Source: Pseudomonas sp. Os17 (lineage in GTDB: Bacteria > Pseudomonadota > Gammaproteobacteria > Pseudomonadales > Pseudomonadaceae). From it: DNA of 64,000 bases. Below are positions 50,107 to 53,654 of this stretch, in pieces; position 1 is the first letter of the stretch, and each line of letters starts with the position of its first letter. The notes under the pieces were generated by a model that was not told the origin of the DNA, did no database searches, and worked only from the letters and a program-made list of their open reading frames with translations. The stretch spans positions 5,521,501-5,585,500 of the forward strand of contig NZ_AP014627.1 in NCBI RefSeq assembly GCF_001547895.1. The letters run 5' to 3'. A program made the translations under genes and the position numbers.

Positions 50107-52155
50107 TCAGTAGCGGGCGTCCGCCGGACGGCCACCGTTGGGCCAGTCCTTGACCTTGTCCGGGAAGTCCGGACGCGGTTGGTGGGAGAAGTACTCGGCC
50201 ACGTCCAGGGCCTCCTGGTCCGACAGGCCGCCCTGGCCCAGGGGGAATTTCTCGTGGAAGCCGATGGGCATGTTGCGTTTGACGAAGGCCGCGGCGGTGT
50301 AGGTACGGGCCATGCCGGCACCGATGTTGAAGGATTGATCGCCCCACAGCGGCGGGAAGATCAGGCTGCCGTCGGCCCGTTTCAGGCCTTCGCCATCAGC
50401 GCCATGGCACACCGCGCATTGCTTGGCATAGACCTGCTTGCCGTTGTCGGCGTTGGGCTTGAGGGCCGGGTCGATCTTGCCGACACCGCGCCCGGCCACC
50501 TTGTCTTCGGGGCGAGTGTTCATTTTCATCCATTCGAAATAAGCCACCATGGCTTGCATGTCGGCACCGTTCACCGGCAGCGGCTTGCCGTGCATGGAAC
50601 GGCGGAAGCAGCCGTTAATGCGCTCCTCCAGGGTGATGGTCTTGCCCGCCCGCGGCGCGTAGCCGGGGAAGAACGCCGAGACACCGACAAAGGGTGAACC
50701 GTCGGCCACGGTGCCGGCGTTGAGGTGGCAACTGGTGCAGTTCAGCGAGTTGCCGACGTTGTCCGGCAGCAGAGCCTTGGTTTCCAGGTGCAGGCGCATG
50801 CCGCGCACCACTTGCTCGGCATTCGGTGCCGCCAGCAGGTTGGCCAGGCGCGGGGTTTCGAACAAGGTGTTTTCCACTTGCGGGCTCAGTTGCGCACGCA
50901 TCTTTTTCACTTGCTCGGCGCTGATGGCCGAGCCGTTGTTGCCCCAGCTGCTGCGGATAAAACTGAGGATTTCGGCAATCTCGCCATCCGCCAGCTGGGC
51001 GAACCCGGGCATGGTGTAGACCCGCGGATGAGCGGCGGTCTGCGCGGTCTGCCAGCCGGTCAGGGTGATGTGCAGCAAGGAGGTCGGATTGGCCGAGGCG
51101 ACGCTGGGGTTGCCCGCCAGGGACGGGAACATCTGCGGCACGCCAGCGCCGTCCTGGCGGTGGCAGTCGGAACAGAACTGCGCGTAGCCCAGGCCACCGC
51201 GAGAGGTGAACAGGTTGCTCGGCGGGGCCGCCGGAGTCAGGGCCACCGAAGGCATGGGCAGATCGTCTTTACCGGCCGGCAGGGACTTGAGGTAGGCGGC
51301 AATGGCGGTCAGGTCAGCGTCGGTGAAATGCTGGGTGCTGTGGTGGATCACGTCGGCCATGTTGCCGGACACCGTGGCGAAGCGGTTCTGCCCGGTCTTG
51401 AGCAGTTGCACTGTGTCTTCCACGGTCCACAGGTTGCGCAGGCTCAGGGCCCGCCACTCTTCCACCGTCTCACCGGCCAGGTAGTGCTGGCCGCCGGACT
51501 CGGTGTCGCTCATGGCCTTCTCCTGGAAGGCAATGCCCCGTGGCGTATGGCAGGAACCGCAGTGGCCCAGGCCCTGGACCAGGTAGGCGCCGCGATTGAG
51601 TTGCTCGTCCTTGGCCGGATCGGGCTTGAACGGCTGCTTGTCGACGAAGGCCAGGTTCCAGAACCACAGGCCCCAGCGCTGGTTGAAGGGGAAGCCCATG
51701 TCGGCTTCCAGGTTGACCTGGGCCACCGGCTCCACACCGTGCATCAGGTAGGCGTAAAGGGCGCGCATGTCCTCTTCGGTCATCTTGGCGTAGGACGGGT
51801 ATGGCATGGCCGGGTACAGATGGCTGCCGTCAGGGGTGACGCCTTCGCGCATGGCGCGATCGAATGCTTCGAAGCTGTAGCGGCCGATACCGGTGTCTTT
51901 ATCCGGGGTGATGTTGCTGGAGTAGATGGTGCCCATGGGCGTCTTCAGCTCCAGGCCACCGGCCATGGTGGCGCCGCCCTTGGCGGTGTGGCAGGCAATG
52001 CAATCGCCCAGTTGGGCCACGTACTGGCCACGCTGGATCAACTCGGAGTCGGGGGTGGAAAGCGCCGCTGCCGGGGTCGGCTCGCTGGCATGCAAAAGAG
52101 GTACGCAGAGCAGCGCGGCGCCCAGCAGGGGCAGGCGCGACAGAGAAAAAGCCAT
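50107..52155 (-). CDS. Five-heme c-type cytochrome: triheme AdhB-like plus TsdA-like fusion
   Basis: A 682-residue exported cytochrome with signal peptide (LPLLGAALLCVPLLHASEP) and five CxxCH heme sites at C52, C199, C328, C473 and C580. The first three domains resemble the triheme membrane-linked cytochrome of alcohol and gluconate dehydrogenases (GDCIACHTAKGG, GLGHCGSCHTPRG, FCSDCHRQDGAGVP). The last two resemble TsdA thiosulfate dehydrogenase/tetrathionate reductase: CTSCHLNAGT, then TLEERINGCFRRSMHGKPLP with C516 at the place of the distal cysteine ligand, and CAVCHGADGEG with M630 in FVKRNMP. It is likely periplasmic. Substrate is inferred, not shown. Confidence 0.82.
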   Translation of the reverse strand: MAFSLSRLPLLGAALLCVPLLHASEPTPAAALSTPDSELIQRGQYVAQLGDCIACHTAKGGATMAGGLELKTPMGTIYSSNITPDKDTGIGRYSFEAFDRAMREGVTPDGSHLYPAMPYPSYAKMTEEDMRALYAYLMHGVEPVAQVNLEADMGFPFNQRWGLWFWNLAFVDKQPFKPDPAKDEQLNRGAYLVQGLGHCGSCHTPRGIAFQEKAMSDTESGGQHYLAGETVEEWRALSLRNLWTVEDTVQLLKTGQNRFATVSGNMADVIHHSTQHFTDADLTAIAAYLKSLPAGKDDLPMPSVALTPAAPPSNLFTSRGGLGYAQFCSDCHRQDGAGVPQMFPSLAGNPSVASANPTSLLHITLTGWQTAQTAAHPRVYTMPGFAQLADGEIAEILSFIRSSWGNNGSAISAEQVKKMRAQLSPQVENTLFETPRLANLLAAPNAEQVVRGMRLHLETKALLPDNVGNSLNCTSCHLNAGTVADGSPFVGVSAFFPGYAPRAGKTITLEERINGCFRRSMHGKPLPVNGADMQAMVAYFEWMKMNTRPEDKVAGRGVGKIDPALKPNADNGKQVYAKQCAVCHGADGEGLKRADGSLIFPPLWGDQSFNIGAGMARTYTAAAFVKRNMPIGFHEKFPLGQGGLSDQEALDVAEYFSHQPRPDFPDKVKDWPNGGRPADARY

Positions 52156-52369: not shown

Positions 52370-53035
52370 TTACTCGCTGGTTTCCACCCCCAGTCCCGCC
52401 GCTTGCCAATCGGTGAACCCCTGCTCCAGACGCCGCACCTTGAAGCCCTTGGCCCGCAGCAGGGCTGCGGCATTGTGTGACAGCACGCAGTAGGGGCCAC
52501 GGCAATATGCCACCCACTCCTGATCAGCAGCCAATTCGGCCAGACGCTGCTCCAGCTCCTCCAGCGGGATGTTGATTGCCCCGGGCAAATGCCCTTGAGC
52601 GAACTCCTCCGGCGAACGCACGTCCAGCAGGGTCATGCCGCCTTCCTGCAAGCGTTGACGCAGTTCCTCACGGGATATGCCCTCCAGTTGCATCGGTTGC
52701 TGCTCACTGTCGGCCAGCAGTTGGCGAATCTGCCCATGGTTGTAATCGACGTACTGACGCAAGGCGCCCAGCAGACTGGCCAGCGGCCCCTGGCTGAGGC
52801 TGTAGAGCACCCGCTTGCCATCGCGCCGGGTCTGCACGAAACCGCCACGCCGCAACTGCTGCAGATGCTGTGATGTATTGGCCACCGACAGGCCCGAGGC
52901 TTCCACCAGACGCTCCACCGGCAGCTCGCCGCGAGCAATGTGCTCCAACAGGATCAGCCGGTGATGGTGGCCGAGAATGCGCGCCAGCTCAGCCATCTCG
53001 ACCAGGGGATGCTGGGGGGAAATCGAATCGCTCAT
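52370..53035 (-). CDS. ArsR-type regulator fused to a rhodanese domain
   Basis: A 221-residue fusion. Residues about 8-95 are an ArsR/SmtB winged HTH (LARILGHHHRLILLEHIARG, then VANTSQHLQQLRRGGFVQTR). Residues about 118-218 are a rhodanese domain with the active loop CRGPYC (C178, C183) after LLDVRSPEEFAQGHLPGAIN. No metal-binding cysteines are seen in the HTH part, so sensing may go through a persulfide on C178. A perfect palindrome lies in the divergent promoter. Confidence 0.9.
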   Translation of the reverse strand: MSDSISPQHPLVEMAELARILGHHHRLILLEHIARGELPVERLVEASGLSVANTSQHLQQLRRGGFVQTRRDGKRVLYSLSQGPLASLLGALRQYVDYNHGQIRQLLADSEQQPMQLEGISREELRQRLQEGGMTLLDVRSPEEFAQGHLPGAINIPLEELEQRLAELAADQEWVAYCRGPYCVLSHNAAALLRAKGFKVRRLEQGFTDWQAAGLGVETSE

Positions 53036-53060: not shown

Positions 53061-53082
53061 CATTCAATCACTTAATTGAATG
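53061..53082. promoter_or_regulatory. Palindromic operator between the ArsR-rhodanese and DUF2938 genes
   Basis: CATTCAAT-CACTTA-ATTGAATG is a perfect 8-bp dyad with a 6-nt spacer, the AT-rich shape of ArsR-family operators. It lies 26 nt from the regulator ATG and 63 nt from the DUF2938 ATG, so it can control both. Confidence 0.65.
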
Positions 53083-53144
53083 AAAACTTATCACGCCCGT
53101 GCACAAGGCTGAAGCACAGCCCGTCGCACTTCAAGGAGTCCGTA

Positions 53145-53654
53145 ATGCATGAGTTCGTCGCGTTGATCTCACAGGCGCTGCTGTTGGGCATCGGCGCCAC
53201 CTTGATCCTTGATCTTTGGACGCTGTTTCTGGCGCGGGCGCTGAACATGCCTGGCGCCAACTGGGCGATGGTCGGCCGCTGGATCGGGCATTTTCCTCGT
53301 GGGCGCTTCGTGCATCCAAGCATCGCCCAAGCCGCCGCGGTCCCCGGGGAGCATGCACTGGGCTGGCTGGCTCACTACCTGATCGGCGTCGGCTTTGCCG
53401 CCCTGTTGCTGCTGATCTGCGGCCTGGAGTGGGCGCGACAGCCGACCCTGGCACCGGCCCTGATCATCGGTGTCTTGACGGTGGCTGCGCCGTTCCTGCT
53501 GATGCAACCGGGCATGGGCGCCGGAATCGCGGCGAGCAAGACGCCCAAGCCGAATGTGGCCCGGCTGCGCAGCCTGATGGCACATGCGGTGTTCGGGCTG
53601 GGCTTGTATGGGGCGGGGATGTTCTGGGCGTGGGTGTTGGGGCAGACTGCGTGA
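53145..53654 (+). CDS. DUF2938 family membrane protein
   Basis: A 169-residue inner-membrane protein with about four transmembrane segments (ISQALLLGIGATLILDLWTL and LAHYLIGVGFAALLLLICGL among them) and the conserved GMGAGIAASKTPKP segment. The biochemical role of DUF2938 is not known. AAGGAG lies 7 nt before the ATG. Its promoter shares a palindrome with the divergent ArsR-rhodanese gene, which suggests it is a target. Confidence 0.88.
   Translation: MHEFVALISQALLLGIGATLILDLWTLFLARALNMPGANWAMVGRWIGHFPRGRFVHPSIAQAAAVPGEHALGWLAHYLIGVGFAALLLLICGLEWARQPTLAPALIIGVLTVAAPFLLMQPGMGAGIAASKTPKPNVARLRSLMAHAVFGLGLYGAGMFWAWVLGQTA

Follow-up and report, generated by a model that had tools for sequence, protein, structure and literature searches.

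In Pseudomonas sp. Os17 a triheme cytochrome of the AdhB type and a diheme protein of the TsdA type are joined in a single five-heme polypeptide; this fusion is real and conserved, and the AdhB-type cytochrome is a second type of partner for TsdA, beside TsdB. The fusion gene lies in the window, by which is meant the whole stretch of 64,000 nucleotides analysed here, as one uninterrupted frame of 682 amino acids and a stop codon on the minus strand (50107–52155). Its CxxCH motifs start at C52, C199, C328, C473 and C580, and outside these motifs the frame has just two cysteines, C17 within the signal sequence and C516. The original prediction of five CxxCH sites in one exported chain is confirmed by the frame and the motif positions, with the signal read by eye, and the distance of 39 residues that it gave between H477 and C516 is exact in the translated frame. 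The features are as follows.

50107–52155, minus strand: fusion of an AdhB-type triheme and a TsdA-type diheme part, 682 aa (from frame, motifs and homology)
52084–52155, minus strand: N-terminal export signal, about residues 1–24 (read by eye; low pLDDT at residues 1–5 and 19–24)
50881–52071, minus strand: AdhB-type triheme half, residues 29–425
51988–52002, minus strand: heme site 1, C52–H56; distal Met candidate M117
51547–51561, minus strand: heme site 2, C199–H203; distal Met candidate M266
51160–51174, minus strand: heme site 3, C328–H332; distal Met candidate M382
50110–50865, minus strand: TsdA-type diheme half, residues 431–682
50725–50739, minus strand: heme site 4, C473–H477, corresponding to TsdA Heme 1, predicted to be catalytic
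50608–50610, minus strand: C516, aligned to the heme-ligating Cys of Allochromatium vinosum TsdA (AvTsdA; PMC4423706)
50404–50418, minus strand: heme site 5, C580–H584, corresponding to TsdA Heme 2, predicted to serve electron transfer
50269–50274, minus strand: N628–M629; M629, predicted to ligate Heme 2 distally; N628, at the position of AvTsdA Lys208 (PMC5146829)
50236–50259, minus strand: subfamily insert past the Heme-2 Met, about residues 633–640
50110–50169, minus strand: subfamily C-terminal tail, residues 663–682 (DFPDKVKDWPNGGRPADARY)

Residues 29–425 are matched by AdhB-type triheme cytochromes, best by the cytochrome subunit of a quinone-linked alcohol dehydrogenase (8gy2_B, E = 1e-106), and also by the cytochromes of fructose and glucose dehydrogenases (7w2j_C and 8hdd_B, respectively). 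Three CxxCH domains, the AdhB fold and three candidate Met ligands are all present in this half, so that heme sites 1–3, predicted to resemble the electron-accepting cytochrome of periplasmic dehydrogenases, are of the AdhB type both by sequence and by fold. AvTsdA (4wqc_A) matches residues 435–670 with E = 3e-54, and the Pfam family SoxA-TsdA_cyt-c (PF21342) matches residues 472–540 with E = 3.8e-11 and 43.3 bits, where the cut-off is 27. With two c-type heme motifs in a fold of the SoxA/TsdA type, the C-terminal half thus has TsdA as its best match in sequence, Pfam family and fold, as was predicted for sites 4 and 5, and a better score to an unrelated diheme family was looked for and not found.

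In the AlphaFold model of the fusion (pLDDT 89.9, pTM 0.88), which is a second model used after a weak first run (22 fusions, pLDDT 64.1), the two halves match the AdhB and TsdA folds, and the TsdA half superposes on 4wq7 with 2.0 Å over 223 residues. When the TsdBA fusion of Marichromatium purpuratum (5lo9_A) is compared with model residues 185–682, 405 residues are aligned with an rmsd of 6.8 Å, from which it follows that AdhB domains 2 and 3 may occupy roughly the position of TsdB. The likeness to M. purpuratum TsdBA is that an electron-carrier cytochrome is fused ahead of TsdA; the difference is that its partner is the diheme TsdB, in agreement with what had been said of the known TsdB–TsdA fusions, while the partner in Pseudomonas has three hemes and groups with the AdhB-type cytochromes, so that the fusion is not of the TsdBA type. 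AvTsdA, in contrast to the fusion, has been solved as a free-standing diheme protein (4wq7, 4wqc, 4v2k), has Lys at the position of N628 and is without the insert and the tail of the subfamily described below. The AdhB-type cytochromes 8gy2_B, 7w2j_C and 8hdd_B, in turn, serve a dehydrogenase subunit, whose place is here taken by a TsdA domain or gene.

A database search with the fusion gave 7826 matches, the best 120 of which cover 94–100% of its length at 77–98% identity; those among the 120 that carry an organism name are from Pseudomonas, and some JGI entries are titled thiosulfate dehydrogenase. Matches of near full length at such identity mean that the fusion is conserved and neither an assembly artefact nor a product of chance. 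Within the genus it is present at full length in 27 of 199 genomes, that of Os17 included (L001, L006–L031), and in one further genome (G131; L112 8574–9506) it has decayed to about 310 N-terminal codons, with heme 3 and the TsdA half gone. Outside the genus five genomes have the full-length fusion: G326 and G317 from the same family, G928 and G1019 from other families of the class, and G923 from another class of the phylum. It occurs also in a metagenome-assembled genome (MAG) of Burkholderiaceae (L196 3581–5794). All 33 fused frames have five CxxCH motifs.

Outside the fusions, the nearest relatives of the C-terminal half are stand-alone diheme proteins with about 50–57% identity to it, as compared with mostly 35–46% for other TsdA proteins. 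At 13 of 14 such loci (L038–L050, L055) an AdhB-like triheme gene is found directly upstream on the same strand, and at the fourteenth, L045, the contig ends. The same order was found when the best 80 of 107 relatives of the TsdA half were inspected, a set that includes several of the same records (e.g., L124 and L128): in 76 of the 80 loci the TsdA-type gene stands directly behind an AdhB-like triheme gene, and the two frames overlap or abut. The number 76 consists of 75 loci found by script, among which L196 is fused, and L197 found by eye, with L176 counted on a partial AdhB-like frame. At three of the other loci (L129, L130 and L151) the contig breaks off, and in Moraxella bovoculi (L192) the TsdA-like frame is shortened and there is no AdhB-like match.

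The two-gene form occurs, among other taxa, in Thiopseudomonas, Denitrificimonas, Psychrobacter, Marinospirillum, Oceanospirillum, Ignatzschineria and Wohlfahrtiimonas, and further in Pelistega, Achromobacter, Alcaligenes, Advenella, Bordetella trematum and Pseudochrobactrum. PMC9237845 names the TsdA of Psychrobacter arcticus as a relative, one that may belong to the two-gene subfamily. In a contig with the title Bacillus subtilis (L181) there is a two-gene unit like that of Pseudochrobactrum (L182); probably the title is mistaken or the assembly contains foreign DNA. All 24 two-gene AdhB-like rows of alignment A2 have three CxxCH motifs. Of the AdhB-like proteins in 24 two-gene pairs, 23 have a hydrophobic stretch at the N-terminus, either an anchor or a signal sequence, and of the TsdA proteins 10 have a lipobox-like motif.

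As a control, consider 36 loci with other TsdA genes, of which 28 have a separate diheme, TsdB-like frame beside TsdA, one is itself a four-heme frame, two are three-heme frames and five have neither. A triheme neighbour beside TsdA occurs at none of these 36 loci, most of which span only 1.5 kb on each side. From an AdhB-like neighbour at 76 of 80 loci and at none of the 36 it follows that there is a subfamily of TsdA in which an AdhB-type partner replaces TsdB. Two single frames, of 410 and 390 aa (L074 1477–2706 and L077 1009–2178), show another architecture, with three CxxCH motifs and a TsdA domain.

The subfamily is also seen in trees. In a tree of the C-terminal half, the 41 fused and two-gene rows fall on one side and the 38 others on the opposite side (SH-aLRT 95), and the same split (SH-aLRT 88) is obtained in a second tree, to which AvTsdA and M. 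purpuratum TsdBA were added and from which the long rows L260 and L059 were left out. There, the TsdA half of TsdBA groups with ordinary TsdA, and AvTsdA is closer to the subfamily than to the rest, with a long branch and weak support. In the tree of the N-terminal half, two groups are seen inside the AdhB family, one made up of the fused parts and the other of the two-gene parts and L196; the AU test does not reject a constraint that unites the two (p = 0.454). A single clade of all fusions, L196 included, is rejected for the N-terminal half (AU p = 0.0135) and not for the C-terminal half (AU p = 0.383), which makes at least two fusion events likely, though unproven. The fusion in the Burkholderiaceae MAG is nested in the two-gene clade and is probably a separate event, so that the fusion probably arose more than once.

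In AvTsdA the active-site residues Arg109, Arg119, Ser127 and Arg224 surround the heme ligand Cys123 (PMC4423706), and the counterpart of the Heme-2 Met is Met209 in mature numbering (PMC5146829). By manual count on the alignment, Arg109, Arg119, Cys123, Ser127, Arg224 and Met209 correspond to R502, R512, C516, S520, R617 and M629 of the fusion, all six of which are invariant in the 41 rows of the subfamily (16 fused and 25 two-gene). The cysteine is found in addition in 38 of 38 other TsdA rows. C516, expected about where TsdA has its His/Cys-ligated heme, thus aligns as the predicted distal ligand of the catalytic heme. The residue at the position of N628 is Lys208 in AvTsdA and Asn254 in CjTsdA (PMC5146829, PMC6879331); as a marker for the direction of the reaction N628 was dropped, since Asn also occurs in 36 of the 38 other rows and is therefore uninformative.

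Two further features set the subfamily apart. The spacing from M629 to D651 is 21–24 residues in the subfamily and 14 in 32 of the 38 other TsdA rows, and the tail has the conserved motif DWP..P.DAR, with a comparison by sequence rather than length, the rows having been trimmed to their BLAST matches. Tail length was dropped as a signature, since 4 of the 38 other rows also have 18–21 residues past P662. The canonical TsdA of Os17 has a tail unlike that of the fusion; related tails occur in three odd outliers (L258, L260 and L059). The first of these, a TsdA-like gene at L258 3310–4326 (G815), branches beside the subfamily, has the DWP tail without the full insert and is without a cytochrome neighbour within its 6.5-kb contig.

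We consider it fairly probable that the fusion is an exported thiosulfate dehydrogenase/tetrathionate reductase in which TsdB has been replaced by a covalently attached AdhB-type triheme cytochrome, by which the enzyme would be wired to the membrane. That its chemistry is the interconversion of thiosulfate and tetrathionate is what we infer from the residues above. A different proposal, to which we give a rather low probability, is that the TsdA half has changed its substrate, for instance to a thiosulfonate, a longer polythionate or an organic thiol, and is for this reason kept beside a canonical TsdA. Os17 has, apart from the fusion, a canonical tsdB–tsdA pair (L004, about C1:3,840,800–3,842,400), and in the 199 genomes of the genus canonical TsdA is found in 26 of the 27 with the fusion (it is absent in G174) and in 43 of the 172 without it (Fisher p = 5e-13, shared descent being ignored). 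Counted as canonical TsdA are also frames that are broken or incomplete (G030, G002, G075) and matches split in two (G042, G155, G041, G166). Outside the genus, canonical TsdA occurs in four of the five fusion genomes and not in G923, and each of the 13 two-gene genomes from the family search carries a further TsdA match, partial in two cases. A change of substrate would account for these numbers and, likewise, for the subfamily-specific insert and conserved tail, but it fits less well with the invariance of the AvTsdA thiosulfate-site residues, in particular R502, which the subfamily shares with AvTsdA and which is Lys in 35 of the 38 other rows, and with the position of the insert in the sequence, at the electron-transfer heme and away from the catalytic Cys.

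When 26 of 27 bearers already have a canonical TsdA, a mere duplicate of its activity becomes less likely. In G016 and G1019 a canonical tsdA with a diheme tsdB-like gene even adjoins the fusion, divergently in one case and convergently in the other (L255 1662–5608; L106 8035–12095). The co-occurrence, with the genes side by side in these two genomes, speaks for a joint or complementary role of the two enzymes. The original prediction is partly supported. It was right about the anatomy of the protein on all points open to a test, and the electron exchange that it proposed, with the quinone pool or terminal oxidases, is plausible from the protein family; the two-gene unit, the separate TsdA subfamily and the nearly universal canonical TsdA had escaped it.

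To return to the thiosulfate/tetrathionate enzyme wired to the membrane, two thiosulfates would be converted to one tetrathionate, or the reverse, at heme 4 (His477/Cys516), with the S-thiosulfonate of Cys516 as intermediate; the published mechanism of TsdA runs via a Cys thiosulfonate (PMC4423706). For the electrons we infer a path from heme 4 to heme 5 (His584/Met629) and on to the three AdhB hemes, from which they would reach ubiquinone/ubiquinol or a terminal oxidase in the membrane, in analogy with the dehydrogenases for alcohol, gluconate and fructose that are linked to quinone. Reactivity with quinones is a known trait of the AdhB family, and the potential of ubiquinone is about +100 mV. 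That of the thiosulfate/tetrathionate couple is +198 mV (PMC9562282). From this follows that a direct reduction of ubiquinone by thiosulfate would be uphill under standard conditions, and that a direct link to quinone would favour reduction of tetrathionate, except with an oxidised pool and abundant thiosulfate. It is conceivable, and we put this forward tentatively, that AdhB–TsdA is a cytochrome-based quinol:tetrathionate (or thiosulfate:quinone) oxidoreductase and forms, in a periplasmic thiosulfate/tetrathionate shuttle, the arm opposite to canonical TsdBA of the same cell, one arm connected to quinone and the other to cytochrome c. DoxDA couples thiosulfate/tetrathionate to quinone, as is here proposed for the fusion, but it is not a cytochrome and the proteins are not known to be related. 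DoxDA thiosulfate:quinone oxidoreductase is named in PMC9237845.

The same heme chain could, with a probability that we judge to be limited, deliver its electrons only to soluble cytochromes c and from there to cytochrome c oxidase, as TsdB does, with AdhB as a larger wire that makes no contact with quinone. The quinone reactivity of the AdhB family and the hydrophobic N-terminal stretches in the two-gene form are at odds with such a route. The fused form, on the other hand, has no obvious membrane anchor besides its ordinary-looking signal sequence, so that its seat in the membrane is only putative, and TsdB accepts electrons from TsdA elsewhere, with horse cytochrome c functioning in vitro (PMC5146829).

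AdhB-type cytochromes are the acceptors of alcohol, sugar and aldehyde dehydrogenases, and one may therefore ask whether the AdhB half serves such an enzyme in trans, with the TsdA half as a terminal reductase by which oxidation of organic compounds is coupled to reduction of tetrathionate. Os17 itself has two ordinary AdhB genes, one behind the gene for a GMC flavoprotein and one behind that for a molybdenum-type subunit. When relatives of these subunits were searched for near fused and two-gene loci (122 records; GMC and molybdenum-type queries), the only matches were part of a second AdhB operon in L092 and L098. We regard this coupling as very improbable. Among the 13 window proteins scanned against Pfam there is no dehydrogenase subunit. 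These neighbours comprise LysR, LysE, PhoD-like, DUF7079, VTT-domain, class-III aminotransferase, amidohydrolase, ArsR–rhodanese and DUF2938 proteins and three without a Pfam match, and none of those scanned is obviously linked to the fusion.

Directly upstream of the fusion, on the same strand, lies a gene for an ArsR-type regulator fused to a rhodanese with the loop CRGPYC (52370–53035, minus strand), and divergent from it a gene for a DUF2938 protein (53076–53654, plus strand). The ArsR–rhodanese gene was dropped as a functional clue, its family not being recurrent beside other fusions; within 7 kb, overlapping frames aside, no family of neighbours occurs beside more than 15 loci. Six or seven of the 29 fusion loci (e.g., L086) have, 2–7 kb upstream on the same strand, genes that by eye resemble the cyo quinol-oxidase operon, which may be a mere matter of chromosomal neighbourhood.

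In a literature search of open-licence PMC papers, neither a pair nor a fusion of AdhB and TsdA was met in titles or abstract openings. The electron acceptors identified for TsdA, namely TsdB and small cytochromes, are to our knowledge an incomplete set. For the second type of partner, TsdA and AdhB have separate genes in Gamma-, Beta- and Alphaproteobacteria and share a single chain in Pseudomonas and a few other bacteria, and the fusion together with its neighbouring-gene relatives suggests that there is a second route by which sulfur chemistry is connected to respiration. The bearers mostly keep a canonical TsdA, and this raises the question why a cell should have two differently wired TsdA enzymes. 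The fusion offers a single protein with which one may ask whether thiosulfate/tetrathionate chemistry is linked directly to the quinone pool.
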